Source of the DNA: Pseudomonas sp. StFLB209
GTDB lineage: Bacteria; Pseudomonadota; Gammaproteobacteria; Pseudomonadales; Pseudomonadaceae
Assembly (NCBI RefSeq): GCF_000829415.1
Contig: NZ_AP014637.1
Location: 973,501 to 1,037,500, forward strand
Direction of reading: 5' to 3'
DNA: 64,000 nt
The position numbers were made by a program, and so were the translations under genes. The notes under the pieces are model-generated. The model had not been told where the DNA came from. It ran no database searches and saw only the letters and a list, made by a program, of their open reading frames with translations. Shown one piece after another: positions 37,919-44,124 of the stretch. Position 1 is the first letter of the stretch; the number at the start of each line of letters is the position of its first letter.

Positions 37919-38647
37919 ATGCGCTGTGCTCTAGCTCTGACCTTGTTCTGCCTGCCCGCTGTCGCTTCTGCCGATTGCACCGCACAGCTGGCCGGTTGGG
38001 CGAAAAAGCTGCATCCCGATCTGACCTTCTCTGCCCAACATTCGGTGTGCAAGGCCTCTCCTGTCGATGCCAAGCGAACCCTGGCAGCCTTGGCGTTTGT
38101 TGAAAGCGGCGATGAGGAGGACGGCGCGACCTACGGGCTGGAGGTTCTCAGCGCTGTAGGTGGCCAGATCGAGCAGCACGTCTATGAAAGTGCGGCGATC
38201 AGTTCCGATGCAGTGCGCTTCGAAAGTCTGAGCCTGGACACTGCACGCTATCACCTGACACCTGAGCTGCGCGCATTTGGGGTGCGTGCCAGTTATGTCG
38301 GCTCATCACGTGTGAACCCGTTCTCCTCCACCGACCTGAGCCTGTATGTGCTCGACGGCGCCAAGCCGCGCAAGGTTCTGGACAAGCTGGAAGTACAACG
38401 TTCAGGCGGTGAGTGGGATGGCAACTGCCAGGGCGAGTTCTATGACATTACCAGCAGCCTGGCGATCGACAAGACGCTTAGCCATGGTTATGCGGGCCTG
38501 GCGGTGACGGAAAAGACGGTAGAGTCGCGCTCGTTCGCGAAGCACGATGATTGCAGTAACAGCGAGAGCAAGCCGGTGACCAAGAGGTACCTGGTGACCT
38601 ACGATGGCACCCACTATGTAGTGCCAGGCCAGGGCAAGCATCAGTGA
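37919..38647 (+). CDS. Exported hypothetical protein
   Basis: 242 residues with a clear signal peptide (MRCALALTLFCLPAVASA-DC). Four cysteines in the mature part (DCTAQ, SVCKA, GNCQG, HDDCS) suggest two disulfides in a periplasmic protein. AAAGGA precedes the ATG at seven bases. I do not recognise a catalytic domain; the C-terminal YLVTYDGTHYVV looks beta-rich. It stands alone between the tRNA and a DUF1652 gene. Confidence 0.85.
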   Translation: MRCALALTLFCLPAVASADCTAQLAGWAKKLHPDLTFSAQHSVCKASPVDAKRTLAALAFVESGDEEDGATYGLEVLSAVGGQIEQHVYESAAISSDAVRFESLSLDTARYHLTPELRAFGVRASYVGSSRVNPFSSTDLSLYVLDGAKPRKVLDKLEVQRSGGEWDGNCQGEFYDITSSLAIDKTLSHGYAGLAVTEKTVESRSFAKHDDCSNSESKPVTKRYLVTYDGTHYVVPGQGKHQ

Positions 38648-38808
38648 TGCAGAATGGGCCTGAGTGAAATCGGCAGCGCATCACATTTCTGACGTGTTGC
38701 CCGCAAACAGCCAGGGATGCGGGACGACATATCGACAGACTTGGACTAGATTGGTGAACGCTCTCCTATTTCCAAGCGCCCGGCACCCGCAGTGCCAAGG
38801 ATGCCCAG

Positions 38809-39072
38809 ATGCTGCTTTCCCATGCCGATCTGCGCCACATCATGGAAACCGCGTTCGTCCCGTCACTGTGCAAGTGCACCATCACTGCCGACGGGCTGAT
38901 GAGTCTCGAACTGAGCCATCCCAGAACCCAGGCTGAGGAATTCAGCCTGAGCGGCATTCCGGTCGCTCAGCTGGACACCGGACGCGCCATTGCATCGCTG
39001 GTGCTGGGCATCCGCGAAGAGGTCAGGTTGCGTCAGGTGGCCCGGCCGCTGCGAGCCATGCATCAGGCCTGA
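38809..39072 (+). CDS. DUF1652 protein
   Basis: 87 residues matching the Pseudomonas DUF1652 family: LRHIMETAFVPSLCKCTIT ... LSGIPVAQLDTGRAIASLVLGIREEVR. AAGGA sits seven bases before the ATG. Such genes are numerous and small, with no known function. Its last 50 bases overlap the end of the convergent NIPSNAP gene. Confidence 0.87.
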   Translation: MLLSHADLRHIMETAFVPSLCKCTITADGLMSLELSHPRTQAEEFSLSGIPVAQLDTGRAIASLVLGIREEVRLRQVARPLRAMHQA

Positions 39073-39406
39073 GTTCGCTCGGCCAGCGCGGCTGGTCGTA
39101 CCAGTCGAGCAGCGGGCGCATAAAACTGCGCTCGTAACTGATGATGAATTTTTTCTCGGTTGCCAGTTGCACGGCCTCGATGCATTCAGGGTCAGTGGCG
39201 GCCTGTTCGCGATAACGTTCGTAGTCGGCCAGGCTGGGGAAGCTGAACAGGCAGTAGGCGACGTTATTGGCACCTTCTGACGGCAGGAAGTAGCCGTGGT
39301 GCAGCCCTCCCATGCGCCCGACCAGATGAATCCAGCGACGGCAATAGGCTTCGAAATCGACCAGTTGATAAGGGTCAATGATGTAGCGGACGTGGCAGGT
39401 GATCAC
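39023..39406 (-). CDS. NIPSNAP-family protein
   Basis: ~127 residues of the NIPSNAP/dimeric alpha-beta barrel class: ITCHVRYIIDPYQLVDFEAYCRRWI-type start and a FSFPSLADYERYREQA middle. The GTG at 39406 is chosen over the ATG at 39439 because AGGAA precedes it at proper spacing and family members start with the beta strand ITCHVRY. Function is unknown; relatives form ferredoxin-like dimers. Its 3' end overlaps the DUF1652 gene tail to tail. Confidence 0.85.
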   Translation of the reverse strand: MITCHVRYIIDPYQLVDFEAYCRRWIHLVGRMGGLHHGYFLPSEGANNVAYCLFSFPSLADYERYREQAATDPECIEAVQLATEKKFIISYERSFMRPLLDWYDQPRWPSELRPDAWLAAAGPPDAT

Positions 39407-39475
39407 TGGATCATTCCTTTGAAAAAACCGGGGCGCCATTCTAACCCGGCGTTCAGCCCACTCTTCTTGAGTTAC

Positions 39476-39691
39476 TCAGAAGACAAACTGATTGAGCGCT
39501 GCAAGCCCACCGACTATCCAGACCGCCGCGCCCAACGCGGTGACCCATTCCGAGCTCGGCTTGCCTGATAACCATGACTCACGAGGTGACCATTGACCCA
39601 GCGTTATCAGTTTGAGCAACAGCCAGCCAGCGGGATAGAAAAGACAACGCAGGACAAACTCAACAATGAGTTCCAGCAATGCGTCCAGCAT
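39476..39691 (-). CDS. Small membrane protein
   Basis: 71 residues with two hydrophobic stretches, LLELIVEFVLRCLFYPAGW and ALGAAVWIVGGLAALNQF, so it is probably an inner-membrane hairpin protein. The ATG at 39691 has GGGAG nine bases upstream. The family is unknown to me; similar short proteins with a GQWSPRESW-like loop occur in Pseudomonas. Confidence 0.7.
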   Translation of the reverse strand: MLDALLELIVEFVLRCLFYPAGWLLLKLITLGQWSPRESWLSGKPSSEWVTALGAAVWIVGGLAALNQFVF

Positions 39692-39856
39692 CAAAACTAC
39701 TCCCTGATAGAGGCCATCGAAAATGGCCGCATGATCTTATCAGGTCACAGACCGTCATAAATCACCTGCAATTACCCTAATGGCCAGTATCGCCTTGCAA
39801 GGTGCGCGGCTGGCAAAGTGAAGGCCTTTTTTCAGGCCCCCAAGGAACACCACCCA

Positions 39857-40678
39857 ATGCTGACCCTGAACATCGGCCCTCTGGCACTGGCCATGCAGCA
39901 TGTGCTGATCATTGGCAGCCTGCTGCTGGCGAGCCTGACCGGCTGGCGTGTGGGCCGCCGTCAGGGGCTTAACCCGGAGAAGCAACTGTTTGGCCTGCTG
40001 ATTACGGCATTGCTGGCGGCTCGTCTGGCCTTCGTGGCGGTGTATTTCCAGCATTACCGAGACCAGCTCTGGGGAATTGTCGATATCCGTGACGGCGGCT
40101 TTATCGCTGAGGCGGGGCTGTTGGCTGCGCTGCTTATGGGCGCCTGGAAGCTGTATAAAAACCCGCCGCTGCGCAAGCCGTTGGGCATAGCGATGATGGT
40201 CGGTTTATTCGCCTGGGGTGCGGGTAATCTTGTCTTGCACTGGCAGGAACGAGAATCACGCCTGCCTGATCTGGCGTTGGTCGAGCTGGACGGCAAGCCG
40301 GTCAACCTGCAGGCGTATCGTGGCACGCCGCTGGTCATCAATTTGTGGGCAACCTGGTGCCCGCCGTGCAGGCGCGAGATGCCGGTGCTGATGAAAGCCC
40401 AGGCCGAACATCCGCAGATGACCTTCCTGTTCGTCAATCAGGGTGAAACAACGGATGAGATCCAGCGCTTCATGCAGTCCCAAGGGCTGGAGTTGAGCAA
40501 TGTACTGCTCGACCGACACAACCAACTCGGCAAGCTGGCCGGCTCCATGGCCTTGCCAACCACCTTGTACTTCGACAGTGAGGGTCGGCAGGTCGGCAAT
40601 CACTTGGGTGAGCTGTCGCAGGCCAGCCTGGCGCGGGCCTTGAAAAGCCTGCAAAACAGTGAGGAGTCAGGCCAGTGA
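39857..40678 (+). CDS. TlpA-like thiol:disulfide oxidoreductase with membrane-spanning N-terminal domain
   Basis: 273 residues. The first ~125 form three or four membrane helices with an Lgt-like look (HVLIIGSLLLASLTGWRVGRRQGL ... GFIAEAGLLAAL). The C-terminal ~145 residues are a thioredoxin fold with WATWCPPCRREMP and the cis-Pro loop MALPTTLYF, so the redox domain faces the periplasm. The ATG at 39857 is chosen from the AAGGAA and the membrane-helix start; an upstream ATG at 39818 adds an unlikely tail. No cytochrome c maturation or DsbD gene is nearby. Confidence 0.88.
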   Translation: MLTLNIGPLALAMQHVLIIGSLLLASLTGWRVGRRQGLNPEKQLFGLLITALLAARLAFVAVYFQHYRDQLWGIVDIRDGGFIAEAGLLAALLMGAWKLYKNPPLRKPLGIAMMVGLFAWGAGNLVLHWQERESRLPDLALVELDGKPVNLQAYRGTPLVINLWATWCPPCRREMPVLMKAQAEHPQMTFLFVNQGETTDEIQRFMQSQGLELSNVLLDRHNQLGKLAGSMALPTTLYFDSEGRQVGNHLGELSQASLARALKSLQNSEESGQ

Positions 40679-40683
40679 AGCGG

Positions 40684-40712
40684 TTGCCATCCTCTTACGG
40701 ATTGACTAGTCT
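40684..40712 (+). promoter_or_regulatory. Candidate promoter for the threonine leader
   Basis: TTGCCA and TAGTCT are 17 bases apart, six bases after the TlpA stop. The predicted start site falls at or just before the leader ATG at 40720, which also lacks a Shine-Dalgarno sequence, so the leader may be translated from a leaderless message. Confidence 0.4.
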
Positions 40713-40719
40713 CGCCCCC

Positions 40720-40791
40720 ATGATCATTTTCGCGCTGACCTCGACCACCACTACCACGACCGCCCATGGCGGGTCGCGTGCGGTGTCGTGA
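40720..40791 (+). CDS. Putative threonine-rich attenuator leader peptide
   Basis: A 23-codon frame (ATG at 40720, TGA at 40789) with seven threonine codons, six of them consecutive (40744-40761). This is the layout of thrL-type leader peptides, where scarce charged tRNA-Thr stalls the ribosome. Directly after the Thr run come complementary segments and a terminator. No Shine-Dalgarno is evident. The downstream gene is an isochorismatase-fold hydrolase, not a threonine biosynthesis gene. Translation is not proven. Confidence 0.6.
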   Translation: MIIFALTSTTTTTTAHGGSRAVS

Positions 40792-40812
40792 GTAACTGAA
40801 GCACGATCCCCC

Positions 40813-40847
40813 AAGGCCCCGCCAGCGATGGACGGGGCCTTTTTATT
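40813..40847 (+). terminator. Terminator/attenuator with alternative antiterminator pairing
   Basis: AAGGCCCCG/CGGGGCCTT (nine pairs) is followed by TTTTATT. The upstream TGGCGGG (40767-40773) can pair with CCCGCCA (40818-40824) and would break the terminator. That same upstream segment can instead pair with CCGCC at 40760-40764, which overlaps the last Thr codon. This is the 1:2, 2:3, 3:4 arrangement of a classical attenuator. As a simple terminator it could also serve the TlpA gene. Confidence 0.75.
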
Positions 40848-40884
40848 GCCCGTGTCGCTGGCTTTTCAAGCAAGGAGAAGCGAC

Positions 40885-41406
40885 ATGCACGCACTATTGG
40901 TTCTGGATATGCAGGTCGGGCTGTTCCATGGCCCGGACACGCCTTGGCAAGCCGAGCGGCTGCTCAATACGGTCAATGAATTGCTGGGCAAGGCCCAGGC
41001 AGCGGGAGCACCGGTGTTCCTGGCCCGTCACGTCGGCCCGTCTGGCTCGCCCATCGAACCGGGCAGCAACCTGACCCGCCTGATCGATGAACTGCATCTG
41101 AGCGGCAACGAGCATATTTTCGAGAAAACCCGCCCCAGCGCGTTTGCCGGCACTGATCTGGTTGAACGCCTGCACGCGGCAGGCACAAAAAGCCTGGTGA
41201 TCGTCGGCCTGAAGACTCAGTACTGCGTGGACAGCACCTGCCGCGCCGCACGCGAGCTGGGCTTCGATGCGGTGCTTATCGAAGACGGCCATAGCTGCTC
41301 TGACACGCCAGCTCTCAAGGCCGAACATATTGTTGCCCACCATAATGCGACCCTCGCCGGGCCGTTTTGCCGAGTGGTGCATTCACAGGACTGGCAGTTC
41401 GATTGA
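40885..41406 (+). CDS. Cysteine hydrolase, isochorismatase family
   Basis: A 173-residue isochorismatase-fold amidohydrolase with the full triad: Asp8 (VLDMQ), Lys81 (FEKTRPSAF) and Cys114 (TQYCVDST). Relatives cleave amides or ureides such as nicotinamide, N-carbamoyl compounds or oxamate. The ATG at 40885 follows AAGGAG; an earlier in-frame ATG lies inside the terminator. It begins 38 bases after the attenuator-like terminator and may be under its control. Confidence 0.9.
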   Translation: MHALLVLDMQVGLFHGPDTPWQAERLLNTVNELLGKAQAAGAPVFLARHVGPSGSPIEPGSNLTRLIDELHLSGNEHIFEKTRPSAFAGTDLVERLHAAGTKSLVIVGLKTQYCVDSTCRAARELGFDAVLIEDGHSCSDTPALKAEHIVAHHNATLAGPFCRVVHSQDWQFD

Positions 41407-41542
41407 GCTACGATTGTCTCCTTCAGAGTGACAGTAAAACGCTTTTCAGCCGATTTATCCCATCCCGGTAAATCCTTAATCTGTGTCCAAGTTGAACGCA
41501 ACGCCACTTACCCCACAACTTCTCAGATAAAGGATCTACCCC

Positions 41543-42169
41543 ATGGCCAACTTCACCTACAACCGCCTGAACAAAGACGACGCCGCTGTACTGCTGATCG
41601 ACCACCAGACCGGCCTCATTTCGCTGGTGCAGGACTTCTCGCCCAACGAGTTCAAGAACAACGTGCTGGCGCTGGGTGACCTGGCCAAATTCTTCGAGCT
41701 GCCAACCATCCTCACCACCAGCTTCGAGCAAGGCCCCAACGGCCCGCTGGTGCCGGAGCTCAAAGAGCAGTTCCCGGATGCGCCGTACATCGCCCGCCCT
41801 GGCCAGATCAACGCTTGGGACAACGAAGACTTCGTCAAGGCGATCAAGGCCACCGGCCGCAAGCAACTGATCATCGCCGGTGTCGTCACCGACGTGTGCG
41901 TGACCTTCCCGGTGCTGTCGGCCCTGGAAGAAGGTTTTGAAGTGTTCGTGGTGACCGATGCTTCCGGCACCTTCAATGAAACCGTGCAACAGGCCGCGTG
42001 GAACCGTATGAGCCAGGCTGGCGCCCAACTGATGAACTGGTTCTCGGTGGCGTGTGAGCTGCACCGCGACTGGCGCAACGATATCGAAGGCTTGGGCAAC
42101 CTGCTGAGCCAGCGCATTCCCAACTACCGCAACCTGATGAACAGCTATGCAGCGCTGGCTTCGCACTGA
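41543..42169 (+). CDS. ycaC: YcaC-type isochorismatase-family hydrolase
   Basis: 208 residues, close to E. coli YcaC over its whole length (AAVLLIDHQTGL, NNVLALGDLAKFFELPTILT, IARPGQINAWDNEDFVKA, SQAGAQLMNWFSVACELHRDWR). Asp20 and Cys119 (VVTDVCVTF) are the catalytic positions. YcaC forms octameric rings; its substrate is still not known. AAGGA precedes the ATG. It lies 136 bases after another isochorismatase-fold gene, but the two are not close relatives. Confidence 0.92.
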   Translation: MANFTYNRLNKDDAAVLLIDHQTGLISLVQDFSPNEFKNNVLALGDLAKFFELPTILTTSFEQGPNGPLVPELKEQFPDAPYIARPGQINAWDNEDFVKAIKATGRKQLIIAGVVTDVCVTFPVLSALEEGFEVFVVTDASGTFNETVQQAAWNRMSQAGAQLMNWFSVACELHRDWRNDIEGLGNLLSQRIPNYRNLMNSYAALASH

Positions 42170-42184
42170 TTGACGCAATACCCG

Positions 42185-42262
42185 GTAGGAGCGGCTTCAG
42201 CCGCGAACGCTTCAGCAGCGAAGCTTTAACCACGAAAGATTCGCGGCTGAAGCCGCTCCTAC
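42185..42262. repeat. REP pair (inverted)
   Basis: GTAGGAGCGGCTTCAGCCGC and its inverted copy are about 32 bases apart, between the convergent ycaC and receiver genes, where a bidirectional transcript end is expected. The spacer holds degenerate REP remnants. Confidence 0.9.
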
Positions 42263-42294
42263 GAGGTTCCGTGCTTAGCGCAGGATACGACCGG

Positions 42295-42654
42295 TTACTC
42301 GTTGAGCAGCTTTTTCACGCTCTCGACCATGGCTTCGATTTCGAACGGTTTTTCAAAGACCTTGGTGAACAGCTCAGGCCTGGCCGAGCCCAGGTGTGCC
42401 TGGGCGCCACTCATCAAGACAATGGGAATGGTGGAAAACTGAGGGTTTTCCCGCACGGCAGCGGCGAACTCCATGCCGTTCATGCCCGGCATCATGTAGT
42501 CGGTGATAATCAGGCCCGGTCTTTCCCGGTCCAGGATCGTCAGCGCCTTTTGCGCAGTGCCCGCGGTGACAGTCAGAAAGCCCTCATCCTCCAGCGCGAA
42601 GCTCAGGATCTCAGCGATCAGGTACTCATCATCGACAATCAGAATCGTGGTCAT
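42295..42654 (-). CDS. Stand-alone response regulator receiver
   Basis: A 119-residue CheY-like receiver with no output domain. Acidic pocket residues Asp8/Asp9, phospho-acceptor Asp52 (LIITDYMMPG), Ser82 (MSG) and Lys102 (EKPFE) are present. It starts 24 bases after the KaiC-like ATPase gene on the same strand, so the two are likely one operon. No histidine kinase gene is adjacent. Confidence 0.93.
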   Translation of the reverse strand: MTTILIVDDEYLIAEILSFALEDEGFLTVTAGTAQKALTILDRERPGLIITDYMMPGMNGMEFAAAVRENPQFSTIPIVLMSGAQAHLGSARPELFTKVFEKPFEIEAMVESVKKLLNE

Positions 42655-42678
42655 AGCGCGCCCACCCTGCTCAATGAG

Positions 42679-44124
42679 TCATGGGCGAGATGACGGTTGT
42701 GAATCTGCACCGTTGTCGTCGTTGAATACATGAGAAAAAGCCTTGCGAACGTCTATGCCCTGATTACCTATCACCAGCTCGAGAAGCGCAGGATCATAAG
42801 CACTGTCCCTAACTTTAAGGATGGACAGGTGCCGTTTAAGTTCAGAGTCTGATTCTGCGAATCTGACCAGCAGCAGGTTATCGACAATTCCGGACAAATC
42901 CGAAGCCGGGGCATCGACCACTTCACCCAGGATACTGCGCACCTCCCAGGAAGCGATCACGGTGACGTTGCGGCTGCGCAGCTCTCCCATCAACGCCGTG
43001 TACAGATCGAGAATCCGCGATCGGTCTGCTGCCGTTCTGGCCATGCCACCAAGGCTGTCGATGAACACCCGGCGGATGGATTTCTGCTCGACCAAGCGCA
43101 GCAGTTCGAGGGCCAGTTTGTCGATCTTTTCCGTGGTGACCGAACGCCAGAGCAGTGTCAGTGCACCCTCAGCCTCCAGCGACGCGAAATCACGTCCCAG
43201 CGCTTTGGCTTTCAGCCGCAGGCGCTGGGGAGACTCGTAGAAACCGAAGTGCAGCCCCGGCTCTGCTACCGTGGACTCGGCCAGGAAGTTGATGCCTATA
43301 GACGTCTTGCCCGAGCCGGAAGGCCCCATGATCAGCGAGACCGAGGAGGACACCAGACCACCGCCGATGAGCGGGTCAAGCGAAGCCAGGCCACTGGGCA
43401 CCAGCCCCAGCGTGTCGCTGTCACGCATGGCTGAATGAGTCACGGTGCTCTCAAGGCGCGGATAGACCACCAGGCCGTCATCGGTGATCTCGCACTCATG
43501 ATCGCCGGCCAATGCCGCACTGCCGCGGGTTTTGCGCATCTTGATGCGGCGTACCAGCCGTGAGCCGAGCTGTTCTTCACCCAGTTCCAGCACGCCATCG
43601 ACCATGGTGTGCTCCGGGCTGCCGTCGTCGAGTTGCGAGCTGGTCAGGAAGAATACCGTGCAGCCGGCAAAGGCGGCATGGCCCTGCAATTCGGAAATGA
43701 AACGCTTGGTATTGAGCGGCGAGTCGGCCTTGGAGCGGGCGTTGAGCAGGCCGTCGAGAATCATCACTGTCGATTTTTGCCGCGAGATTTCCCGCCGCAG
43801 CAGCTTCACGACTTCATCCAGACCTTCGTTTTCCATGGTGTCGAAGGCGCTGATGAACTGGATCTCTTCGCCGATCCGGTCTTTGTCGAAAAAGCTTAGG
43901 GTCGAAAGGAACTGGAACAAACGTTCATGAGGTTCGGCCAGCAGGGTCGCGAACAACACGCGCCCGCCGTCGCGCACGTGGTTGAAGCCAATCTGATTGG
44001 CCAGGATCGTCTTGCCCGATCCGGGGCGCCCCTGAATGATGTAGGAGGATCCTGAAACGAAGCCTCCCTTCAGCAGCTCATCAAGCCCTTCAATTCCGCT
44101 CTGAAGGCGTTTTAGCTGGTTCAA
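42679..44124 (-). CDS. KaiC-like double-domain RecA-family ATPase
   Basis: 481 residues with two KaiC domains in tandem. The first has Walker A GRPGSGKT at 32-39 and Walker B ending Asp124; the second has Walker A GPSGSGKT at 267-274 and Walker B at RRVFIDSL (Asp356). It lacks the second catalytic Glu of cyanobacterial KaiC (AEPHERL and YESPQRL in place of EE pairs). The start is a TTG at 44124 with GGGAG nine to ten bases upstream; no ATG or GTG fits in frame after the preceding stop. KaiA and KaiB are absent. A signalling role with the receiver encoded next is likely. Confidence 0.88.
   Translation of the reverse strand: MNQLKRLQSGIEGLDELLKGGFVSGSSYIIQGRPGSGKTILANQIGFNHVRDGGRVLFATLLAEPHERLFQFLSTLSFFDKDRIGEEIQFISAFDTMENEGLDEVVKLLRREISRQKSTVMILDGLLNARSKADSPLNTKRFISELQGHAAFAGCTVFFLTSSQLDDGSPEHTMVDGVLELGEEQLGSRLVRRIKMRKTRGSAALAGDHECEITDDGLVVYPRLESTVTHSAMRDSDTLGLVPSGLASLDPLIGGGLVSSSVSLIMGPSGSGKTSIGINFLAESTVAEPGLHFGFYESPQRLRLKAKALGRDFASLEAEGALTLLWRSVTTEKIDKLALELLRLVEQKSIRRVFIDSLGGMARTAADRSRILDLYTALMGELRSRNVTVIASWEVRSILGEVVDAPASDLSGIVDNLLLVRFAESDSELKRHLSILKVRDSAYDPALLELVIGNQGIDVRKAFSHVFNDDNGADSQPSSRP

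Follow-up and report, generated by a model that had tools for sequence, protein, structure and literature searches.

Attenuators that respond to amino acids belong to the textbook repertoire for the control of biosynthetic operons, and the locus described here raises the question of why a switch predicted to be of this kind should stand before a lone hydrolase gene and, in a sister form, before a lone acetyltransferase gene, in neighbourhoods which differ between genomes. In the present study, we analysed a window of 64,000 nucleotides from Pseudomonas sp. StFLB209 (contig NZ_AP014637.1, positions 973,501 to 1,037,500, forward strand) and compared it with its relatives. Judged from sequence comparison, the conserved promoter-leader-terminator unit is very probably a ribosome-mediated transcription attenuator, which would read charged threonine tRNA and control a single gene for an isochorismatase-fold hydrolase.

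Parts of the unit and the predicted switch

All parts of the unit lie on the forward strand of the window. The candidate promoter has a -35 hexamer TTGCCA (40684..40689) and, after a spacer of 17 bases, a -10 hexamer TAGTCT (40707..40712), which agrees with the consensus at three of six positions and is followed 7 bases on by the leader ATG. The A of this ATG (40720) is the predicted transcription start, given the promoter geometry and the lack of a Shine-Dalgarno site. The leader frame has 23 codons and a stop (40720..40791), and it contains six consecutive Thr codons (40744..40761) and a further one at 40738, just as the earlier note had described. Segment 1 (CGACCGCC, 40757..40764) overlaps the last Thr codons, and segment 2 (TGGCGGGTCG, 40767..40776) is predicted by fold and pair counts to pair either with segment 1 or with segment 3. 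For the 1:2 stem a pairing of 5 bp, CCGCC/GGCGG, had been proposed; the pairing stands but its length does not, as the fold gives eight pairs (CGACCGCC/GGCGGGUCG) with one bulge. The alternative 2:3 pairing TGGCGGG/CCCGCCA was found as proposed (40767-40773 with 40818-40824), and in the fold it is extended by an antiterminator inner stem, GTCGTG/CACGAT (40785..40807; 40785-40790 with 40802-40807), which has a counterpart in group 1. Segment 3 (AAGGCCCCGCCA, 40813..40824) is by the fold both the 5' arm of the terminator and the partner of segment 2, and segment 4 with the T-run (40829..40844), assigned from fold and alignment, is the 3' arm; the terminator of the earlier note is thus present at 40813-40841 and runs into T's. 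The Shine-Dalgarno site AAGGAGA (40872..40878) and the predicted regulated gene, a hydrolase of 173 aa (40885..41406), follow. An in-frame ATG inside the terminator opens a reading frame of 192 residues (40828-41406); it is likely a false start and may mislead automatic annotation. Scans of the window for consensus promoters and terminators found neither element here, so both assignments rest on comparison and not on the scan; the unbroken terminator stem encloses 11 bases, and the limit of the terminator scan is 8.

The layout follows the logic of the thr and trp attenuators. The stop codon is close behind segment 2, the Thr run extends into segment 1, and by prediction and conservation the 1:2, 2:3 and 3:4 pairings exclude one another and are joined to an intrinsic terminator. 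The stalling positions and footprints of ribosomes used here come from general knowledge. When threonyl-tRNA is ample, the ribosome would translate through to the stop codon and cover segment 2, the 3:4 terminator would form and the hydrolase would be off. When it is scarce, the ribosome would stall in the Thr run and mask segment 1, and the resulting 2:3 pairing would block the terminator and turn the hydrolase on. If the leader is not translated at all, 1:2 and 3:4 would form and the hydrolase would be off. The pairings are predictions; stalling, termination, induction and threonine control are what we infer.

The thr operon attenuator of enterobacteria (thrL) combines a Thr-codon run in a short leader with alternative stems and an intrinsic terminator, and the present unit resembles it (Rfam Thr_leader) in all of these. 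Unlike thrL, it governs a lone hydrolase and not threonine synthesis, and it is leaderless by prediction. The control of synthesis or import is the usual trait of thr and trp attenuators and is not essential to the mechanism; the hydrolase gene is not a threonine biosynthesis gene. Rfam 15 gave no match, Thr_leader included, at E up to 1 in positions 38000-44000 of the window, and Thr_leader gave none at E up to 0.1 in four loci (L002, L084, L209 and L248).

Conservation of leader, promoter and stems

At most loci, the hydrolase is preceded by a short leader frame in which codons for a single amino acid are clustered. In the named Pseudomonas set, which was retrieved by protein and is free of leader-search bias (the best 80 of 272 confirmed matches), a Thr-rich leader was found at 78 of 80 loci, L163 and L193 being the exceptions. 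Over all collected loci, with duplicates removed, it was found at 153 of 157 distinct hydrolase loci, which is not an unbiased frequency because many of them were retrieved by the leader search itself. The four without it under the rule are L025, L193, L204 and L393; in L204 the chassis is present and the Thr run deleted, and in L393 a leader with FTTQTTTTAFGGS can be seen by eye, though missed by the rule. Among 86 distinct upstream regions of the hydrolase, a collection separate from the named set, the automatic rule recovered 83 Thr-rich leaders; the other three were L063 and L090, positive under a looser rule, and L025, negative. A DNA search with positions 40600-40900 matched 236 of 398 genus genomes at E 1e-3, some matches being the terminator only.

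The leader peptides are 18-28 residues long (83 loci) and contain 5 to 9 Thr, once 12. In alignments of relatives, the length of the Thr run changes in-frame, by whole codons. One run position outside the stem is ACC in 38 loci, ACT in 15, ACG in 11 and ACA in 11, with a non-Thr codon in 8 of 83; since this tally was counted backwards from the last Thr, its rows from different subgroups are imperfectly in register. On these alignments the Thr run is conserved beyond chance, and the check in relatives which had been suggested for the run and the alternative stems found both conserved.

The promoter keeps its place as well. A -35/-10 pair lying 5-8 bases before the leader ATG, which puts the start at the ATG, was found in 117 of 127 distinct upstream sequences; the same geometry occurred in single-base shuffles with a mean of 0.3 and a maximum of 3, a comparison that is optimistic because the promoter patterns were picked after the sequences were seen. 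Most group-1 loci have a -35 like TTGCCA or TTGTCA and a -10 like TACTGT or TAGTGT, and most group-2 loci have TTGACA and CATGAT. All 31 rule-recovered leaders of the Met type (below) fit a looser promoter pattern, which was also picked afterwards. Shine-Dalgarno-like tetramers stand before 9 of 127 leader ATGs, compared with 76 of 80 hydrolase ATGs in the named loci. The likely transcription start is the leader ATG itself, and the leader message would therefore be leaderless, a prediction of the earlier note that is now backed by comparison. In the available part of the report on Sinorhizobium meliloti, the trpLE(G) attenuator RNA likewise starts at the ATG of the leader frame and is a leaderless leader message (PMC7298713); the likeness is predicted here from promoter geometry, and that system differs from the hydrolase unit in its Trp codons and its biosynthesis gene trpE(G).

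Folded in isolation, the 2:3 segment of the window reached -25.7 kcal/mol (z -2.6) and that of L002 -26.7 kcal/mol (z -4.6); across four such segments, of which two belong to group 1, one to group 2 and one to the Met type, the antiterminator fold had z from -2.5 to -4.6. In 44 group-1 sequences, 84.5% of cells were paired in the 2:3 stem and 86.4% in the 1:2 stem, compared with 27-48% and 21-43% when the stems were slid, and the off-state structure (1:2 plus terminator) was paired in 91.3% over 45 mixed sequences. One group-1 clade has a weaker 2:3 stem, two flanking G-C pairs being lost in 15 of 44 sequences. As to the covarying stems for which a check had been suggested, pairing is conserved, but covariation inside the helices is modest, and controls with shuffled 3' letters were exceeded on some measures only. 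For 13 group-2 sequences, RNAalifold predicted pairs without any double change. The near invariance of the stems leaves few double changes. The threonine attenuator with shared segments 2 and 3 stands as a prediction backed by comparison.

A methionine-codon sister and the distribution of the unit

The Thr model (R1) gave second matches on single genomes, at E about 1e-18 to 7e-10. Most of them have the same chassis with Met-codon leaders (MNMMCSSMTASGGP; others like MTYTRRMNMMCSSMTASGGP) and, downstream, a GNAT acetyltransferase, an enzyme different from the hydrolase. This Met-codon sister of the Thr attenuator is new here and, together with the single-gene unit in changing neighbourhoods and the antiterminator inner stem, goes beyond the earlier note. 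In the accessible parts of the open-licence literature, we found no published report of a Thr/Met attenuator; the available text of Naville and Gautheret 2010 (PMC2965389) has no mention of isochorismatase, threonine, thrA or hydrolase and names Pseudomonas twice, for other leaders. Four of the downstream proteins have Pfam GNAT domains above cut-off, and their NCBIfam matches, including PRK09831, are sub-threshold only.

A Met leader was found by rule in 31 of 37 loci tested. Among the six that failed, L202, L217, L263 and L272 have a Met leader by eye, and L253 and L269 are remnants; in three of the 31 (L252, L259 and L271), a GNAT frame longer than 120 codons is missing immediately downstream. 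A search with the GNAT protein matched 64 of 199 genomes at E 1e-15, and the rule found a Met leader at 20 of 59 retrieved loci, most of the others lying behind unrelated upstream sequence. Over all collected loci, the 77 GNAT loci comprise 41 with a Met leader, 36 with none and 0 with a Thr leader, and no hydrolase locus has a Met leader; leader type and gene type are never cross-paired. The Met-codon paralogue loci, including L206, L209, L248, L256 and L384, come from two genera.

In stem 1 (alignment A6), column 44 pairs with column 63 as C-G in 17 of 20 Thr types and as U-A in 21 of 25 Met types. In this alignment, the change of codon from ACG to ATG goes together with a compensating base change in the partner strand, and this would make the family a natural codon-swap experiment, one RNA being reset from threonine to methionine and its stem kept by the matching change. 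The pair two steps deeper in the stem (columns 46 and 61) is a counter-case: it is A-U in 9 of the 20 Thr types, and 22 of the 25 Met types have an A-C mismatch there. A single case, L294:1498-1760, has Ile codons at the places of Met (MTTQSRMHIIRSSIFAFGGA) and a truncated GNAT reading frame downstream. Decayed forms were also seen (L204, L214, L215, L253, L269, L271 and L279), in which the Thr run is deleted (L204), the start codon or the regulated gene is absent, or the leader is degraded.

At E 1e-12, R1 matched 165 of 398 genus genomes, Thr and Met types pooled. In the order-wide search, 8 of 293 genomes matched at E 1e-4, and G000, G083 and G187 are convincing; L112-L114 were rejected as attenuators, as they proved on reading to be plain terminators, and L115 (E 9.6e-6) and L116 (6.2e-5) lie outside the set classified by reading. 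The own genome gave 17 matches at E up to 10, the unit included, and the two best others (L103 and L104), considered as further units, are plain terminators. The combined model R2 matched 13 of the 148 genomes of the family. Six of these belong to other genera; five of the six matches are Thr leaders with a hydrolase start downstream, and L384 is a Met leader with GNAT. Among G001-G198, 118 genomes lack an R1 match at E 1e-12; R2 was applied to 80 of these in search of other codon types and gave 21 matches in 18 genomes. Of the 11 that were read, six are plain terminators, three are of the Met type, L294 is Ile-like and L279 is a decayed Met-like form; the reading left out the ten weakest, and two of the plain terminators, L295 and L284, are similar to these in strength.

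Flanks of up to 8 kb were compared on either side of the 80 named loci, and no gene family recurred there in more than 11 loci, in a count that leaves out reading frames overlapping the hydrolase itself. Three within-genome copy pairs have in common one block of 665-713 alignment columns, which begins at the leader or at its promoter and ends near the stop codon, and pieces of 36-54 bases. Together with the gene, the promoter, leader, alternative stems and terminator give the impression of a stand-alone unit, and the changing neighbourhoods may be read as lateral movement or repeated relocation of this unit. A fourth copy pair (L148 and L150, P. frederiksbergensis 36C6, one joined contig) is identical over 16.5 kb, perhaps by true duplication or by an assembly fault. 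An empty site for the unit of the window was sought in relatives with tlpA, and none was found in the same setting.

The surroundings of the unit gave some further observations. Upstream in the window, positions 39857-40678 encode a TlpA-like protein with a C-terminal thioredoxin-like domain, whose N-terminal part has weak similarity to prolipoprotein diacylglyceryl transferase (PF01790, below cut-off). The gene next after the hydrolase (41543-42169) encodes a second isochorismatase-fold hydrolase, YcaC (NCBIfam NF041461, 402.8 bits vs a cut-off of 310), and two other loci, L126 and L129, likewise have a match to YcaC (about 93%) close to the unit. In L002, a C4 antisense RNA with its target repeats (579-768), a phage element, lies about 570 bases upstream of the unit.

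The hydrolase and the possible purpose of the unit

The family assigned to the target gene in the earlier note was confirmed (Pfam PF00857, E 1.3e-35). D8, K81 and C114 are invariant in 13 aligned hydrolase sequences, and they correspond to the Asp-Lys-Cys triad of isochorismatase-fold cysteine hydrolases. The earlier note had suggested that this enzyme might make or use a threonine-related amide. The AlphaFold model has a pLDDT of 88.5, and its nearest solved folds are isochorismatase-family structures (3oqp, 2a67, 3mcw, 4h17 and 8cib; 26-32% identity among the 13 top matches), mostly without a stated substrate. One environmental homologue, P0010, among the best 120 of 410 matches, is labelled streptothricin hydrolase by its source. 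Streptothricin hydrolases open the streptolidine lactam, and SttH is of the same family by name. According to the available part of the report on SttH, the KM of this enzyme is high and its natural substrate is perhaps a different one (PMC11702664).

As to purpose, we propose tentatively, and with less than even confidence, that the unit serves as a self-contained response to conditions or compounds which deplete one aminoacyl-tRNA, and that the hydrolase may inactivate the agent. The lone-gene layout, the patchy distribution, the lack of widely shared neighbours and the pair of hydrolase and acetyltransferase favour inactivation of starvation-causing compounds over amino acid supply. Supply is what amino-acid attenuators normally serve, each for its own amino acid, and by the names of its members the hydrolase family includes amidases of N-carbamoyl and other amides. 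The same switch could on these grounds serve nutrient salvage, in which threonine shortage would induce the hydrolase to free threonine or a precursor from an amide, ureido compound or ester. We consider this rather unlikely: transporters, catabolic genes or other neighbours are not widely shared among the loci, and the Met sister governs an acetyltransferase, which is not expected to release methionine.

It is also conceivable that the leader is a general sensor of ribosome-targeting antibiotics, in which any stalled or failed translation would switch the gene on and the Thr codons would be incidental. For the Pseudomonas leader peptide PA5471.1, the accessible text describes a 3:4 terminator whose readthrough depends on antibiotics (PMC13041342), and streptothricins are, in the part available, inactivated by hydrolases as well as acetyltransferases (PMC11702664). 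The hydrolase unit is like PA5471.1-armZ of Pseudomonas aeruginosa in being a Pseudomonas leader-peptide attenuator, and the armZ one controls a resistance function; it differs in that PA5471.1-armZ reportedly senses ribosome-targeting drugs and governs an anti-repressor, and that no single-amino-acid run is described for it in the accessible text (PMC13041342). A general sensor is, in our judgement, very improbable here because it would need neither the upkeep of the Thr run through synonymous change and in-frame indels nor a sister chassis with Met codons at the control positions and a different gene.

A reading in which the hairpin does no more than terminate tlpA, which ends just upstream at 40678, and in which the Thr run is low-complexity sequence without function, has a negligible probability. 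It is rejected on the tally of Thr codons and because the block precedes the hydrolase in loci without tlpA: within flanks of up to 8 kb, none of the 80 named loci has a tlpA match (E 1e-20), and 26 other tlpA loci from 21 relatives have no hydrolase within about 1.5 kb on each side.

Returning to the inactivation of a starvation-causing agent, threonine, methionine and isoleucine share the homoserine pathway, and Thr, Met and the single Ile-like case, all from homoserine, would point to toxins aimed at this pathway. Obafluorin, a Pseudomonas product, inhibits ThrRS according to the available part of its report (PMC10619133), and its link to the hydrolase is hypothetical. On a wider scale, the units may possibly form a modular family of codon-swapped leaderless attenuators driving portable one-gene detoxification units, Thr for the hydrolase and Met for the acetyltransferase, each induced at its own aminoacyl-tRNA shortage. 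The cell would then read the symptom, a shortage of one amino acid brought on by an antimetabolite or by an inhibitor of a tRNA synthetase (obafluorin, for example), and produce the enzyme which destroys the cause. Since the leader indicates which starvation to apply, the function of two uncharacterised enzyme groups becomes testable. If true, this would be resistance induced by the symptom rather than by drug binding.
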